DNA of 35,901 nt from Candidatus Acidiferrum typicum. Lineage in GTDB: Bacteria > Acidobacteriota > Terriglobia > Acidiferrales > UBA7541. The notes under the pieces were generated by a model. The model did no database searches and was not told where the DNA came from. It worked only from the letters and a program-made list of their open reading frames with translations. This document shows, one piece after another, positions 1,142-29,561 of this stretch; the stretch's first letter is position 1, and every line of letters starts with the position of its first letter. Both the position numbers and the translations under genes were made by a program. The stretch is from positions 1-35,901 of the forward strand of contig JAOAPV010000030.1 in NCBI GenBank assembly GCA_025463055.1, read 5' to 3'.

Positions 1142-1831
1142 ATGGGCACCAAGCCTCAGATTCCGTCTCCGGCAAAGAAGTCCAGAGTCCTTCTGGTTGA
1201 CGACCACCCGATTGTTCGCCAAGGACTCGCTCTGCTAATTGACCGTGAAAGCGATCTTTGCGTGTGCGGCGAAGCCGAAGGTGCACATTCCGCATTCCAT
1301 GCCATCACAACTCTTCGGCCTGACATGGTTGTCCTGGATATTTCTCTGAATGGCCCTGACGGGCTCGACGTGCTCAAAGAAATCCGCACAAATACAACAA
1401 ACTTACCTGTCTTGATCCTTTCTATGCACGACGAGTCAATCTACGCAGAACGTGCCATGCGTGCGGGCGCGAACGGCTACATCATGAAGCAGGAGGCGAC
1501 TGAGAAAGTGCTGGTCGCCATTCGACGAATTCTTCAGGGCGAAGTTTATTTAAGTGACCGTCTGACGAATACGATGCTGCAGCAATATGTTCGCGGAGCC
1601 TCTCCGGCCAAGGGTTCTCCGCTTGTAAATCTTACTGACCGCGAGCTGGAAGTTTTTCGCTTAATCGGCGAAGGTCATGGGACTCGCCAGATCGCCGAAG
1701 AGCTGCATCTCAGCGTGAAGACGATTGAGTCGTATCAGGCGCACATTAAGGAAAAACTTGCACTACGGAATGCGCGCGAGCTTGTGCAGCATGCGATTGA
1801 ATGGACCGTGAATCTTAGCGGCGGCTATTAG
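1142..1831 (+). CDS. NarL/FixJ-family response regulator
   Basis: A 229-residue DNA-binding response regulator. The receiver domain spans about residues 14-130, with the acidic pair in LLVDDHP (Asp20/Asp21), the phosphoacceptor Asp66 in VVLDISLNGPDG and the conserved Lys in IMKQEA. A LuxR-type helix-turn-helix occupies about 158-222 (LTDRELEVFRLIGEG, then AEELHLSVKTIESY). It starts 12 bp after the kinase stop and is almost certainly co-transcribed with it as a two-component pair. The hydrogenase small subunit follows after a 270-bp gap with possible operator sequences, making hhyS a plausible target; that link is inference. Confidence 0.93.
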   Translation: MGTKPQIPSPAKKSRVLLVDDHPIVRQGLALLIDRESDLCVCGEAEGAHSAFHAITTLRPDMVVLDISLNGPDGLDVLKEIRTNTTNLPVLILSMHDESIYAERAMRAGANGYIMKQEATEKVLVAIRRILQGEVYLSDRLTNTMLQQYVRGASPAKGSPLVNLTDRELEVFRLIGEGHGTRQIAEELHLSVKTIESYQAHIKEKLALRNARELVQHAIEWTVNLSGGY

Positions 1832-1860
1832 CTCACGGTTATGTATAACGGAAACTCTAG

Positions 1861-1904
1861 GTACCGGGGATTTCCCTACCCCTCTATGAGACCGTCCCCT
1901 ATGA
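1861..1904 (+). promoter_or_regulatory. candidate response-regulator binding region upstream of hhyS
   Basis: Between the response regulator and hhyS. A GTA (1861) and a TAC (1877) flank a core GGGGATTTCCC, giving a loosely symmetric site. TACCCCT at 1877-1883 fits the NarL heptamer pattern TACYYMT. CCCCT(C)TATGA occurs twice (1879 and 1896), with CCCCT starts 17 bp apart. The spacing and location suit an activator site. No convincing -35/-10 pair was found in the remaining 200 bp, so the promoter itself is not assigned. Confidence 0.3.
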
Positions 1905-2101
1905 CAAATTCCGCGTGTACCCGATTGTCGTGGCGCCGCTGTCGCTGTAATCCTTCAAATCGAAATTTTGATAGCAGTAGATATTAATTAGAGTTACGTG
2001 CTTCTCTCGTCTTAGGGCGCTAAGCGTACTGCTTCGTCCATTGCGTTGCGGCACATTTAGAATCGTTGCGCAGAGCCGGGATTGCGGAAGGAGAACCAGT
2101 A

Positions 2102-3166
2102 ATGACACCCGAAGCCGTTCCTTACGGTCGAAAAACCCAAAAACCGTCGCCTGTCTCCGATGTACACATTCTGTGGATTACCGCCGGGCTTGGCTGCGAC
2201 GGTGACTCTGTTTCGGTGACTGCAGCCACCCAACCGAGTATTGAGGACGTCCTGCTGGGTGCGATCCCCGGATTGCCCCGGGTGCATTTACATAACCCAG
2301 TGCTCGCCTACGAAAATGGTGACGATTTTCTGAAGTATTGGTACCAGGCCGAGCAGGGGAAGCTTGAGCCATTCGTTTTGGTTGTGGAAGGGTCGATTCC
2401 CAACGAGAACATAAAGAAAGAAGGCTACTGGGCGGCGCTCGGAACGGATCCGAAGACCGGCCAACCTATTCCGACCACTGAGTGGATCGATCGGCTCACG
2501 CCCAAGGCCCTAGCTGTGGTCGCGATTGGTACGTGCGCGACGTACGGCGGAATCCACGCGATGCAGGGCAACCCCACTGGAGCGATGGGCCTAGCTGACT
2601 ATCTGGGCTGGGGATGGAAGTCGAAAGCCGGCCTGCCAATCGTGAACGTCCCTGGCTGCCCCGTACAGCCTGACAACTTTATGGAGACCGTGCTTTATCT
2701 CCTGTATCAGGTAGCGGGGCTCGCCCCGATGATTCCCCTCGACGACCAGTTACGGCCTACCTGGCTTTTCGGAAAAACAGTACACGACGGCTGCGACCGC
2801 GCTGGTTATTACGAGCAGGGCGATTTTGCGGAGGTTTACGGTTCGCCGAAGTGCATCGTGAAATTGGGCTGCTGGGGACCGGTTGTCAATTGCAACGTGC
2901 CAAAGCGCGGCTGGATGGCGGGCATCGGCGGATGCCCGAACGTCGGAGGCATCTGCATCGGCTGCACTATGCCCGGATTCCCGGATAAGTTCATGCCGTT
3001 CATGGATGAGCCGCCGGGAGCAAGGGTTTCCTCGGCCGCGATCAGCATTTATGGTAAGGCCATCCGATCCCTCCGCGCATTTACCAACGATACGGTGAAC
3101 AAGGAACCAAAATGGCGGCATCCTCGCCCGGAACTCACCACTGGTTATAGGCCCGCGGCGTACTAA
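2102..3166 (+). CDS. hhyS: [NiFe] hydrogenase small subunit, group 1h (high-affinity)
   Basis: The iron-sulfur electron-transfer subunit of a group 1h (formerly group 5) uptake hydrogenase. I place the start at ATG 2102 because AAGGAG lies at 2088-2093; an upstream in-frame start at 2066 has no such site. There is no Tat signal peptide, as expected for group 1h. The first proximal-cluster motif reads C32-D-G-D35, so the usual second cysteine is an aspartate, a known signature of this group. Further ligand motifs are IGTCATYGG, VPGCPVQP, HDGCDRAGYYEQGDF, CIVKLGCWGPVVNC and GGCPNVGGICIGCTMPG. At 354 residues the length is typical. hhyL follows after 20 bp. Together they oxidise atmospheric-level H2 and feed electrons to respiration. 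Confidence 0.97.
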   Translation: MTPEAVPYGRKTQKPSPVSDVHILWITAGLGCDGDSVSVTAATQPSIEDVLLGAIPGLPRVHLHNPVLAYENGDDFLKYWYQAEQGKLEPFVLVVEGSIPNENIKKEGYWAALGTDPKTGQPIPTTEWIDRLTPKALAVVAIGTCATYGGIHAMQGNPTGAMGLADYLGWGWKSKAGLPIVNVPGCPVQPDNFMETVLYLLYQVAGLAPMIPLDDQLRPTWLFGKTVHDGCDRAGYYEQGDFAEVYGSPKCIVKLGCWGPVVNCNVPKRGWMAGIGGCPNVGGICIGCTMPGFPDKFMPFMDEPPGARVSSAAISIYGKAIRSLRAFTNDTVNKEPKWRHPRPELTTGYRPAAY

Positions 3167-26590: not shown

Positions 26591-26649
26591 CAATCTTGGC
26601 GCATAGCAAGGAACCTATAGTGTGAAGTGGCCGGTAGAATCGCCGTGCG

Positions 26650-27953
26650 GTTAACGCGGTGGACTCAACAGGTCGATGCAACACCATCTAATATAAATCT
26701 TCTCTTCAAAGGTGGTGTTTATGGTCCAAGGGAAACGGGCGGGCTTTCTGCGGCGCAGGAGACCGACGTATGGTGCCGTTGGAAGGCGGGGCAGTCACTG
26801 CATATGATTGGGCGCGCCTTCGGCAAGCCACATACATCAATTCACTGTCTGTTGTCGCATCACGGTGGGATTGTCCCGGCAGTGCGTCGGCGCTCGCTGC
26901 TAGCACTCACGCTGGCTGAGCGAGAGGACATTTCTCGAGGGATCGCTTGTGGTTCGTCGATTCGGGATATAGCCAAACATCTGGAGCGCGCTGCGTCGAC
27001 GGTGAGCCGGGAGGTGGCACGGCATGGTGGCCGTCCTGAGTATCGAGCCACTGAAGCGGATCACCAAGCCTGGAGCCAGCCTTGCGGCCCGAGGCGTGCC
27101 TTCTTGCCATCCATGTGAAGTTGCAGAAGATCGTTGCGAGTAAACTGATTCTGGACTGGTCGCCTGAACAGATTTCCGGTTGGCTGAAAATCCAGTATCC
27201 CGATGACGAGAGTATCCATGTGTCCCACGAGACCATTTACCGTAGCCTATTCATCCAAGCACGCGGAGTGCTGAAGAAAGAGCTGATTGGGCACCTGCGG
27301 TCCAAGCGCCGCATACGCCGCTCGCAGCACTCTCGTATGGGCGGACCGTCCCGCGGTCAAATCGTCGATGCTATCTCCATCCGGGAAAGACCCGCAGAAA
27401 TCGAGGATCGCGCCATTCCGGTCATTGGGAGGGCGATCTCATTGGCGGCGCGCGGAACAGTCACATAGCGACCTTGGTGGAACGTCCTTCGCGTTTTACC
27501 ACGCTCGTAAAGGTACGAAGCAAGACACTGCTGTTGTGGTTGCCGCACTTAGCCGGCAGGTCCGCAAGCTCCCAGCATCACTGCGGCGCTCGTTGACGTG
27601 GGACCGCGGGCTGGAGATGGCCAAACACGAGACCTTCACGGTAGCTACGAATGTGAAAGTCTACTTCTGTGATCCTCATAGCCCTTGGCAGCGCGGCACC
27701 AACGAAAACACGAACCGGTTGCTGCGACAATACCTCCCCAAGAGAGCCGACCTTTCCACCTATGCTCAATCAGACCTGGACAAGGTAGCACTCCGTCTAA
27801 GTCAACGCCCGCGAAAGACTCTAGGTTTTGAGACTCCTGCGAGTAGACTTCGAGCTAGTGTTGCGCCGACCCATGGAGCCCGCAGCGCTTACCGGACATC
27901 ATCCTTTCAATAGGGGTACGCCAGAGGTACGCCAAGAAACAGGGCGCGTTAAC
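26650..27953 (+). mobile_element. IS30-family insertion sequence remnant (ends uncertain)
   Basis: It holds the decayed transposase at 26721-27913. Possible terminal inverted repeats are GTTAACGCG at 26650-26658 and CGCGTTAAC at 27945-27953, but these contain the palindrome GTTAAC and may be chance. The short direct repeat GGTACGCCA occurs twice near the right end (about 27915-27935). No target-site duplication was identified. Confidence 0.45.
26721..27913 (+). pseudogene. IS30-family transposase, broken by four frameshifts
   Basis: The pieces join into one IS30 transposase: MVQGKRAG, then LSAAQETDVWCRWKAGQSLH with the N-terminal helix-turn-helix (IRDIAKHLERAASTVSREV), then LRPEACLLAIHVKLQ and LDWSPEQISGWLK, then HWEGDLIGGARNSHIATLV (first catalytic Asp), then SLTWDRGLEMAKHETFT (second Asp), FCDPHSPWQRGTNENTNRL (catalytic Glu region) and RPRKTLGFETPA. 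Each junction needs one missing base to restore the frame: near 26745, near 27075, near 27421 and near 27525. The catalytic residues are still present, so decay is recent. It cannot be expressed as one protein as it stands. Confidence 0.85.
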
Positions 27954-28330: not shown

Positions 28331-28648
28331 ATGGCAGACATCGAGCGAATTAGCGCTCAACAAGCGCATACAAAAGCCGAGTCGAACCAAGCCTTGTTGG
28401 TCTGCGCTTATGAGGACGAGGCCAAATGCCGGATGCTAAATCTGGACGGGTCCATATCCTTCGCCAGCTTGCAGTCCCGAGCGGCGTCACTGCCAAAGAC
28501 TCAGGAAATCATCTTCTATTGAGCTTGACCCGCCGAAGCGAGCGCTGTCGGTCAGGCAGCGAAGTACCAGGCGCAAGGCTTTACGAATGTCAAGGTGCTG
28601 AAAGGCGGGGTCGAGGCGTGGAAGGCTGCGGGATACTCGATGAATTGA
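28331..28648 (+). CDS. rhodanese-like protein with two in-frame UGA codons (possible UxU selenoprotein)
   Basis: One continuous frame of 105 codons from ATG 28331 (ribosome binding site GGGAGGGAG) to TGA 28646-28648, interrupted only by TGA at 28520-28522 and 28526-28528. Before them the protein reads MADIERISAQQAH ... LLVCAYEDEAKCRM ... SLPKTQEIIFY, and after them PAEASAVGQAAKYQAQGF, TNVKVLKGGVEAWKAAGY: a complete single rhodanese domain. Rhodaneses of this type carry Tyr-Cys-x-Cys-Pro at this point, so both UGA codons fall at expected cysteines (codons 64 and 66), the first being the catalytic persulfide cysteine. A hairpin starts directly after the first UGA. Either both UGAs encode selenocysteine, or two TGC codons mutated to TGA and this is a pseudogene. 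Without readthrough a 63-residue inactive fragment results. Confidence 0.65.
28523..28557 (+). promoter_or_regulatory. candidate bacterial SECIS hairpin
   Basis: Bases 28523-28530 (GCTTGACC) pair with 28550-28557 (GGTCAGGC) in an 8-bp stem with one G-U pair. Inside, AGC (28537-28539) pairs with GCT (28544-28546) around a GAGC loop. The apical loop begins 17 nt after the first UGA, and its first base is G, both within what is known of bacterial SECIS elements. The second UGA lies inside the lower stem. This is a hand-drawn fold. Confidence 0.4.
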
Positions 28649-29292: not shown

Positions 29293-29365
29293 GCTCCTGT
29301 AGCTCAGAAGGACAGAGCGCCCTAGTCTCACGGGGAGGTCGCGAGTTCGAGTCTCGCCAGGAGCC
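29293..29365 (+). tRNA. tRNA-like gene, possibly tRNA-Glu(CTC), with a weak anticodon stem
   Basis: The acceptor arms GCTCCTG and CAGGAGC pair over 7 bp, the D-stem GCTC/GAGC over 4 bp and the T-stem GCGAG/CTCGC over 5 bp around TTCGAGT. The anticodon arm (CCCTA, GTCTCAC, GGGGA) forms only about three pairs and seems one base short if the usual AGGTC variable loop is used. The loop GTCTCAC would give anticodon CTC. CCA is not encoded. It may be a functional tRNA with an odd arm or a tRNA pseudogene. Confidence 0.6.
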
Positions 29366-29561
29366 CTCTCTTTCGTCTGTGTATTTTGCTTCAGACCTCA
29401 GTGCAATCGCAAGTGGTGAGAAGTACAGGTTTCGGGAACCGTCCGAACGGACCAAGGACTTCTGGGGTTCCTCAAAATTAGTATAGCCGTGTTTTGGGTC
29501 GCCTCAGTTTTTCCACGGATACGACGCCCGTGATTGACTGGACTCATTTCGATGCTATGTT

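Follow-up and report, generated by a model that had tools for sequence, protein, structure and literature searches.

A gene on the forward strand of the window, the 35,901-nucleotide stretch of Candidatus Acidiferrum typicum DNA analysed here, very probably encodes a functional, stand-alone, single-domain rhodanese selenoprotein with selenocysteine (Sec) at codons 64 and 66 (probability about 0.87); we infer the actual insertion of Sec at both codons from the sequence evidence given below. The coding sequence (28331..28648) starts with an ATG at 28331 and comprises 105 codons followed by a terminal UGA (codon 106, 28646..28648), and its delimitation is supported by orthologues, purifying selection and an AF2 model. 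The terminal UGA is read as a true stop because conservation ends after codon 106. TAA and TAG are both absent from the frame. A sequence-only reading of the window had described a rhodanese frame of 105 codons interrupted only by UGA at 28520 and 28526, and this was confirmed: with the UGAs entered as Cys, the translation matches the Pfam Rhodanese family PF00581 with 38.2 bits (cut-off 22.2). The two codons, 64 (28520..28522) and 66 (28526..28528), form the first and second U of a UxU motif, and if UGA is read as Sec the surrounding sequence is Tyr-Sec-Ala-Sec-Pro. The same reading had proposed the gene as a candidate UxU selenoprotein, which is now supported by the Sec machinery of the genome, by orthologues, by selection and by a covarying hairpin.

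The selA, selB, selC and selD genes, which had been suggested as a check and which mark a bacterium equipped for selenoprotein synthesis, are all present in the window's genome. SelA scores 560.7 bits (cut-off 267.9), SelB 353.8 bits (cut-off 242.25) and SelD 348.9 bits (cut-off 125). The tRNA-Sec model gives one match above its cut-off among 11 (65.2 bits), and ARAGORN names the same gene tRNA-Sec with the anticodon UCA.

The two-TGA protein occurs in three of 89 genomes of the same bacterial family, namely the window's genome, G006 and G021, and the same three genomes carry the gene among 95 genomes of the order (E ≤ 1e-15). A scan of the GTDB r220 genomes returned 62 loci, including a further UxU orthologue, L043 (QIAN01000075.1), as well as L044 and L045, which are copies of the orthologues in G006 and G021. 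In the orthologues of the three other species both UGAs stand at identical codons, and the pair is therefore not a chance occurrence. The codons behind the UGAs are under purifying selection between the window and these three orthologues: over the 38 codons after the UGAs we counted 15-16 synonymous and 2-5 nonsynonymous changes with dN/dS values of 0.02-0.06 (16 and 3 changes for L043), and dN/dS before the UGAs was 0.04-0.11. The earlier description of this stretch as free of stops and conserved thus holds for the orthologues as well. Among themselves, the three orthologues gave dN/dS values of 0.09-0.14 after the UGAs; the four acidobacterial UxU genes compared with the CxU gene L046 gave 0.13-0.41, and other UxU pairs 0.07-0.43. 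For L194 and L195, a pair of a CxU and a UxU gene separated by few changes, dN/dS was 0.31 after and 1.58 before the UGAs, the stretch before them being unconstrained (2 synonymous and 9 nonsynonymous changes).

Homologues of the window gene mostly carry a single Sec. The first set of 59 rows (the window and 58 loci) consists of 55 CxU and 4 UxU sequences, besides which L092 has a CxC motif. Among the family rows that were read, TGC, TGT and TGA all occur at codon 64; at codon 66 the rows have TGA, with a single TGC. This agrees with the Cys/Sec pairing at codons 64 and 66 for which the sequence-only reading had suggested a search. In the enlarged set of 108 rows (89 CxU, 18 UxU and 1 CxC) codon 64 is TGA in 18 and a Cys codon, TGC or TGT, in 90, so that the first in-frame UGA lies opposite Cys in most homologues; codon 66 is TGA in 107 and Cys in one. 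Outside this set, the position equivalent to codon 66 is Cys in 15 of 38 further rhodanese motifs. The idea of two independent TGC to TGA changes had to be given up, as codon 66 is TGA in 107 of the 108 members and only codon 64 changed in the lineage of the window. Since the relatives are mostly C-x-U proteins, and given the placement of the UxU genes in the trees, UGA66 is taken to be the older of the two Sec codons, and UGA64 to have arisen later by a change from Cys to Sec.

The first tree, with 60 rows, unites the four UxU genes in a single clade (99/97) next to the CxU gene L046, and the motif label changes twice overall, one of these changes being for CxC. The enlarged tree recovers the five rows comprising the window clade and L046 with a support of 100/96 and the four UxU genes within them with 100/96; in addition L194 (CxU) and L195 (UxU) are a sister pair with a support of 100/95. 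At least two separate motif changes thus appear well supported. Parsimony counts 11 state changes in the enlarged tree, a figure from which the number of UxU origins remains uncertain because 43 of the 105 inner branches are open, which leaves the tree poorly resolved, because one row, L180, is very long, and because a change can be a gain or a loss. Several loci were left out of this tree: L100, L103 and L104; L179, which is short and broken; the duplicates L152, L156, L161, L162 and L183; L157, which the motif pattern missed and which reads CAU by eye; and L105 and L134-L137, which are other copies of genes already included.

The UxU family members are spread over four phylum-level groups. 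Among the matches listed from 396 genomes of the window's own phylum there was no further match with two TGAs. Protein searches of three other phyla revealed UxU motifs in eight of the 14 matches (13 genomes) from 395 genomes of the phylum of G493 (Thermodesulfovibrionia, Nitrospirota), in two of the 28 matches from 395 genomes of the phylum of G491 (Desulfomonilaceae) and in four of the 15 matches from 95 genomes of the phylum of G492 (Candidatus Rokuibacteriota); the names in brackets follow record titles. In the matches listed from these three phyla the stops inside the matches are exclusively TGA, with no TAA or TAG. The view that UxU is private to one acidobacterial clade was dropped when these searches added 14 UxU members. 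The GTDB scan itself was biased against UxU, as one of its two patterns was the peptide QEIIFYC; this pattern presumably could not find UxU genes because its back-translation demands a Cys codon at position 64.

Two TGAs were also found in rhodaneses that match NF041203. We examined 13 such loci for two TGAs and found nine further UxU loci in the phylum of G493 (L139, L215, L218, L222, L224, L226, L227, L229 and L230); their distinction from the window's family was made by eye (DxR-type motif vs VCAY) rather than by a tree; the other four (L228, L231, L232 and L233) are without a clear motif. Three of the nine score above the NF041203 cut-off (L226, L215 and L227) and six below it, L226 reaching 145.2 bits with two TGAs inside. 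By eye, an N-terminal signal or membrane stretch is apparent in L139, L226 and L230. That UxU recurs in NF041203-type rhodaneses and in four phylum-level groups speaks for a useful second Sec rather than a relic.

Behind the UGAs the family possesses a conserved hairpin with G and U in the loop, as expected of a bacterial SECIS element. RNAalifold, run on 59 Sec members over 57 nt starting at codon 64, gave a single hairpin of four pairs; these are the inner pairs of the stem, which was extended to six pairs for counting; with UGA66 as positions 1-3 the stem is formed by positions 19-24 and 30-35 and the loop by positions 25-29. In the window this predicted SECIS upper hairpin occupies 28544..28560 on the plus strand, with a stem of 28544-28549 and 28555-28560 and the loop GGTCA (28550-28554). 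The loop is usually GGUC plus one base in the 59 members. Of the 354 cells counted 90.4% are paired and 37 show double changes, neither value being equalled in any of 500 shuffles; none of 500 shuffles had as good a covariation score, and slid control hairpins pair in 23-51%. Two measures were less clear: the number of pairs with double changes (3) was equalled by 42 of 500 shuffles, and that of further pair types (9) by 10 of 500. Pair 21/33 is seen as UA, CG, GC, AU and UG and is once unpaired. Four rows were left out of these counts, namely L092 (CxC), L100 (frame broken after the UGA), L103 (decayed, without the motif) and L104 (an ordinary rhodanese).

Folding of single sequences gave a more mixed result: L044, L046 and L057 favour other folds, the centroid of L043 differs, and the z-scores of the six Sec members folded are weak (0.04 to −2.16). 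A rival helix, UGACC/GGUCA, is the minimum-energy fold of some single sequences; it was rejected, none of its pairs being changed on both sides. All five inner pairs are kept in 17 of 18 UxU and 80 of 89 CxU members, and the GGUC loop in 15 of 18 and 66 of 89, respectively. L092 (1970-2281), the sole CxC member found, has a loop of GGGG instead of GGUC and folds weakly, a loop change as would be expected after the loss of Sec. It is probable that the covarying hairpin is a SECIS element that has been kept in the UxU genes. The hairpin was scored at one offset in UxU and CxU sequences, and no shift accompanies UGA64; the loop begins 21 nt behind UGA66 and 27 nt behind UGA64. Consensus models of the bacterial SECIS permit roughly 16-37 nt from the UGA to the loop. 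In the NF041203-type UxU loci the hairpin is less clear than in the main family, with 3-6 of 6 pairs by ungapped counts in seven of the nine, the loci other than L215 and L227. Codon 73 (28547-28549) is GTC (Val) in all four acidobacterial UxU genes and encodes Ala in L046 and most CxU members; the Val codon turns a C-G pair of the hairpin into U-G.

The predicted structure is that of a rhodanese. The AF2 model, based on an alignment of 53 sequences, has a mean pLDDT of 92.1, and its best PDB matches are rhodanese-domain proteins, including 6mxv and 3ilm, with E. coli GlpE (1gmx) in 14th place. The phmmer alignment to 6mxv places residue 64 on the Cys of its FYC motif, and in the model this residue directly follows the strand 59-63. 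The predicted chalcogen residue thus occupies the position of the active-site Cys, where a strand ends, as in rhodaneses; this Cys is the catalytic, persulfide-forming residue of rhodaneses. Residue 25 (28403-28405) is Cys in all 53 aligned members (VCAY and similar), and Cys25 may be a third chalcogen in the molecule. By eye, proteins with a DedA fusion (DLR) and of NF041203 type (DVR) have the Asp of the DxR motif at this position. Its fold, its CxU ancestry and a Sec at the catalytic position make it most likely that the protein acts in redox reactions or chalcogen transfer.

The site very probably descends from a C-x-U selenoprotein in which UGA66 was decoded by SelB through one hairpin, with its loop 21 nt behind. 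In the lineage of the window the Cys codon 64 (TGC or TGT) turned into TGA, and the same hairpin would serve UGA64, at 27 nt to the loop, as well as UGA66. Judged from the motif, Sec64 would stand in for the persulfide-forming Cys and Sec66 would be its resolving partner, either by forming a diselenide or by perselenide/persulfide exchange. U-x-U might be a repeatedly and independently evolved rhodanese diselenol site, in which one SECIS drives two SelB-dependent insertions one codon apart and the two Sec form a diselenide or hand selenium or sulfur to each other in a perselenide relay, which would make the rhodanese a specialist in selenium transfer or in very fast redox exchange; we put this combined proposal forward tentatively, at somewhat less than an even chance. 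With its CxU sisters and its CxC member as controls, the family offers a natural and compact system for asking whether a single bacterial SECIS is able to serve two UGAs one codon apart.

Rather unlikely is an arrangement in which only UGA66 is usefully decoded and UGA64 acts mainly as a stop or as a selenium-sensing brake, so that mostly a stub of 63 residues would be made and the full-length protein would be rare or regulated. This would agree with the location of UGA64, whose distance to the hairpin is 6 nt greater than that of the older Sec codon, and with a hairpin offset that was left unchanged rather than adjusted to accommodate it. However, the codons behind both UGAs are constrained like those before them when the window is compared with its orthologues, and a useful residue explains better than a brake why UxU recurs across lineages and in NF041203-type rhodaneses.

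Decay of the gene by two nonsense mutations among other remnants, an explanation that the sequence-only reading had kept in play, is very improbable and was rejected in view of the selection on the codons after the UGAs and of the family pattern. The surroundings do give some reason to consider it: a likely broken transposase lies upstream at 26627-27913 (HTH_38 and a below-cut-off integrase-core match in separate frames), the flanks cannot be aligned, and the gene occurs in only three of the 95 genomes of the order. Against this, four species share both UGAs with dN/dS well below 1 after them, the gene is without any other stop or frameshift, the SECIS hairpin has been kept, and all but one of the 108 family members have UGA at codon 66. 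The surroundings also differ among L044, L045 and the window, their flanks do not align, and few genomes of the genus carry the gene; differing surroundings and this scattered presence suggest horizontal movement of the gene.

The chance that UGA is read as another amino acid, by an alternative code or by a Cys-charged UCA tRNA, is likewise very small: Cys is indeed the usual homologous residue at codon 64, but the genome has a complete Sec pathway, a hairpin follows the UGAs, and the gene itself ends in UGA, where conservation stops. A sequencing or assembly error at codon 64 can practically be dismissed, for although the window's assembly consists of 146 contigs and the three close orthologues come from metagenome assemblies, the codons are identical in different species from, judging by record titles, at least two projects, amid many synonymous differences.

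The reading as a double-Sec rhodanese can be compared with known selenoproteins. A 2026 table of 119 prokaryotic selenoprotein families and subfamilies (PMC13188914) has rhodanese entries with the motifs UxxS, UxxG, CxU (NF041203), UxxG and UxxxxU. A UxU rhodanese is absent from this table (Table 1), and the strings 'UxU' and 'DedA' are absent from the main text. CxU rhodaneses have thus been catalogued already, and the motif with Sec at both chalcogen positions is absent from the 119 entries. A specialist would expect more CxU rhodaneses, but a recurrent UxU probably not. The accessible parts of PMC9312934, PMC2398784, PMC5029168, PMC1794560 and PMC12013277 contain no UxU rhodanese. The full-text literature searched, mostly without subscription papers and preprints, held no paper joining rhodanese, selenocysteine and UxU, so that priority is unproven; within the same partial coverage no paper was found in which two UGAs at a distance of 6 nt are decoded through a single bacterial SECIS. 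UxU genes are easily shortened by gene finders or labelled as pseudogenes, and probably are under-annotated.

The best curated match of the window protein is NF041203 (rhodanese_LYCAU, 'rhodanese-related (seleno)protein'), likewise a rhodanese and listed as rhodanese-like form 3 with Sec as the second residue of the CxU motif (PMC13188914). Its cut-off of 115 bits is reached neither by the window protein (56.1 bits) nor by L010 (51.4 bits) and L011 (52.6 bits), and eight proteins of the window's family, with UxU as well as CxU motifs, also remain below it (52.7-68.5 bits). Moreover, NF041203 as listed has Cys in the first position of the motif, whereas the window protein is predicted to have Sec. 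The UxxS, UxxG and TsoB (UxxxxU) rhodanese-like selenoproteins resemble the window protein in having Sec in a rhodanese domain, but none is U-x-U; in TsoB, a DsbD-like fusion, the two Sec are spaced five residues apart (PMC13188914). Two Sec in one short bacterial motif, as proposed here, are also found in the UxxU redox selenoproteins (Prx-like, the FmdB family and the metal-binding protein NF041115), which, as far as the accessible sources describe them, belong to other families and have two residues between the Sec instead of one. The accessible part of PMC11818150 describes UXU as a metal-binding motif of animal selenoprotein P, a protein that, unlike the window protein, has the motif in a Sec-rich C-terminal domain and depends on eukaryotic decoding.

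Closer relatives are fusions of a DedA (VTT) domain and a CxU rhodanese from the same bacterial family, in which the motif is homologous (e.g. YCTUPNEATSAR) and the hairpin has the same position as in the window gene. Their frames are mostly ca. 320-390 amino acids long and have a single Sec, with Cys at the first position; the VTT domain was found in L030, the one DedA-type fusion scanned. The window's own genome also encodes a rhodanese of this DedA-fused type, with the motif LYCTUP and one UGA. The fusion is common in this acidobacterial family (L012-L038, and L008 at 1815-3074 on the minus strand in the window's genome), its motif being CxU in many of the genomes but CxC in others; most Sec forms retain the hairpin, and in most Cys forms it has eroded. 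When 38 further rhodanese motifs from L008, L012-L038 and L105-L129, many of them DedA fusions, were compared, all six pairs were present in 19 of 23 Sec sequences vs one of 15 Cys sequences; the 23 count L126 with two motifs and also contain L105, which is a copy of L046. Only three of the six pairs form in the Sec sequences L115 and L117.

The genomic context provides no strongly shared neighbour: a comparison of the surroundings of the window gene and of its five nearest relatives gave, apart from the gene itself, just two weak matches (25-26% identity). When more loci were compared, a single cluster was widely shared (13 loci); it resembles a chain of unrelated long frames, and the other clusters listed comprise at most four loci. 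A partner protein can therefore not be named, and the proposed function rests on fold and motif. Downstream of the gene lies a tRNA-like gene (29293-29366) that has an odd anticodon loop and is left unnamed by ARAGORN, with a score of 48.6 bits against the Rfam tRNA model.
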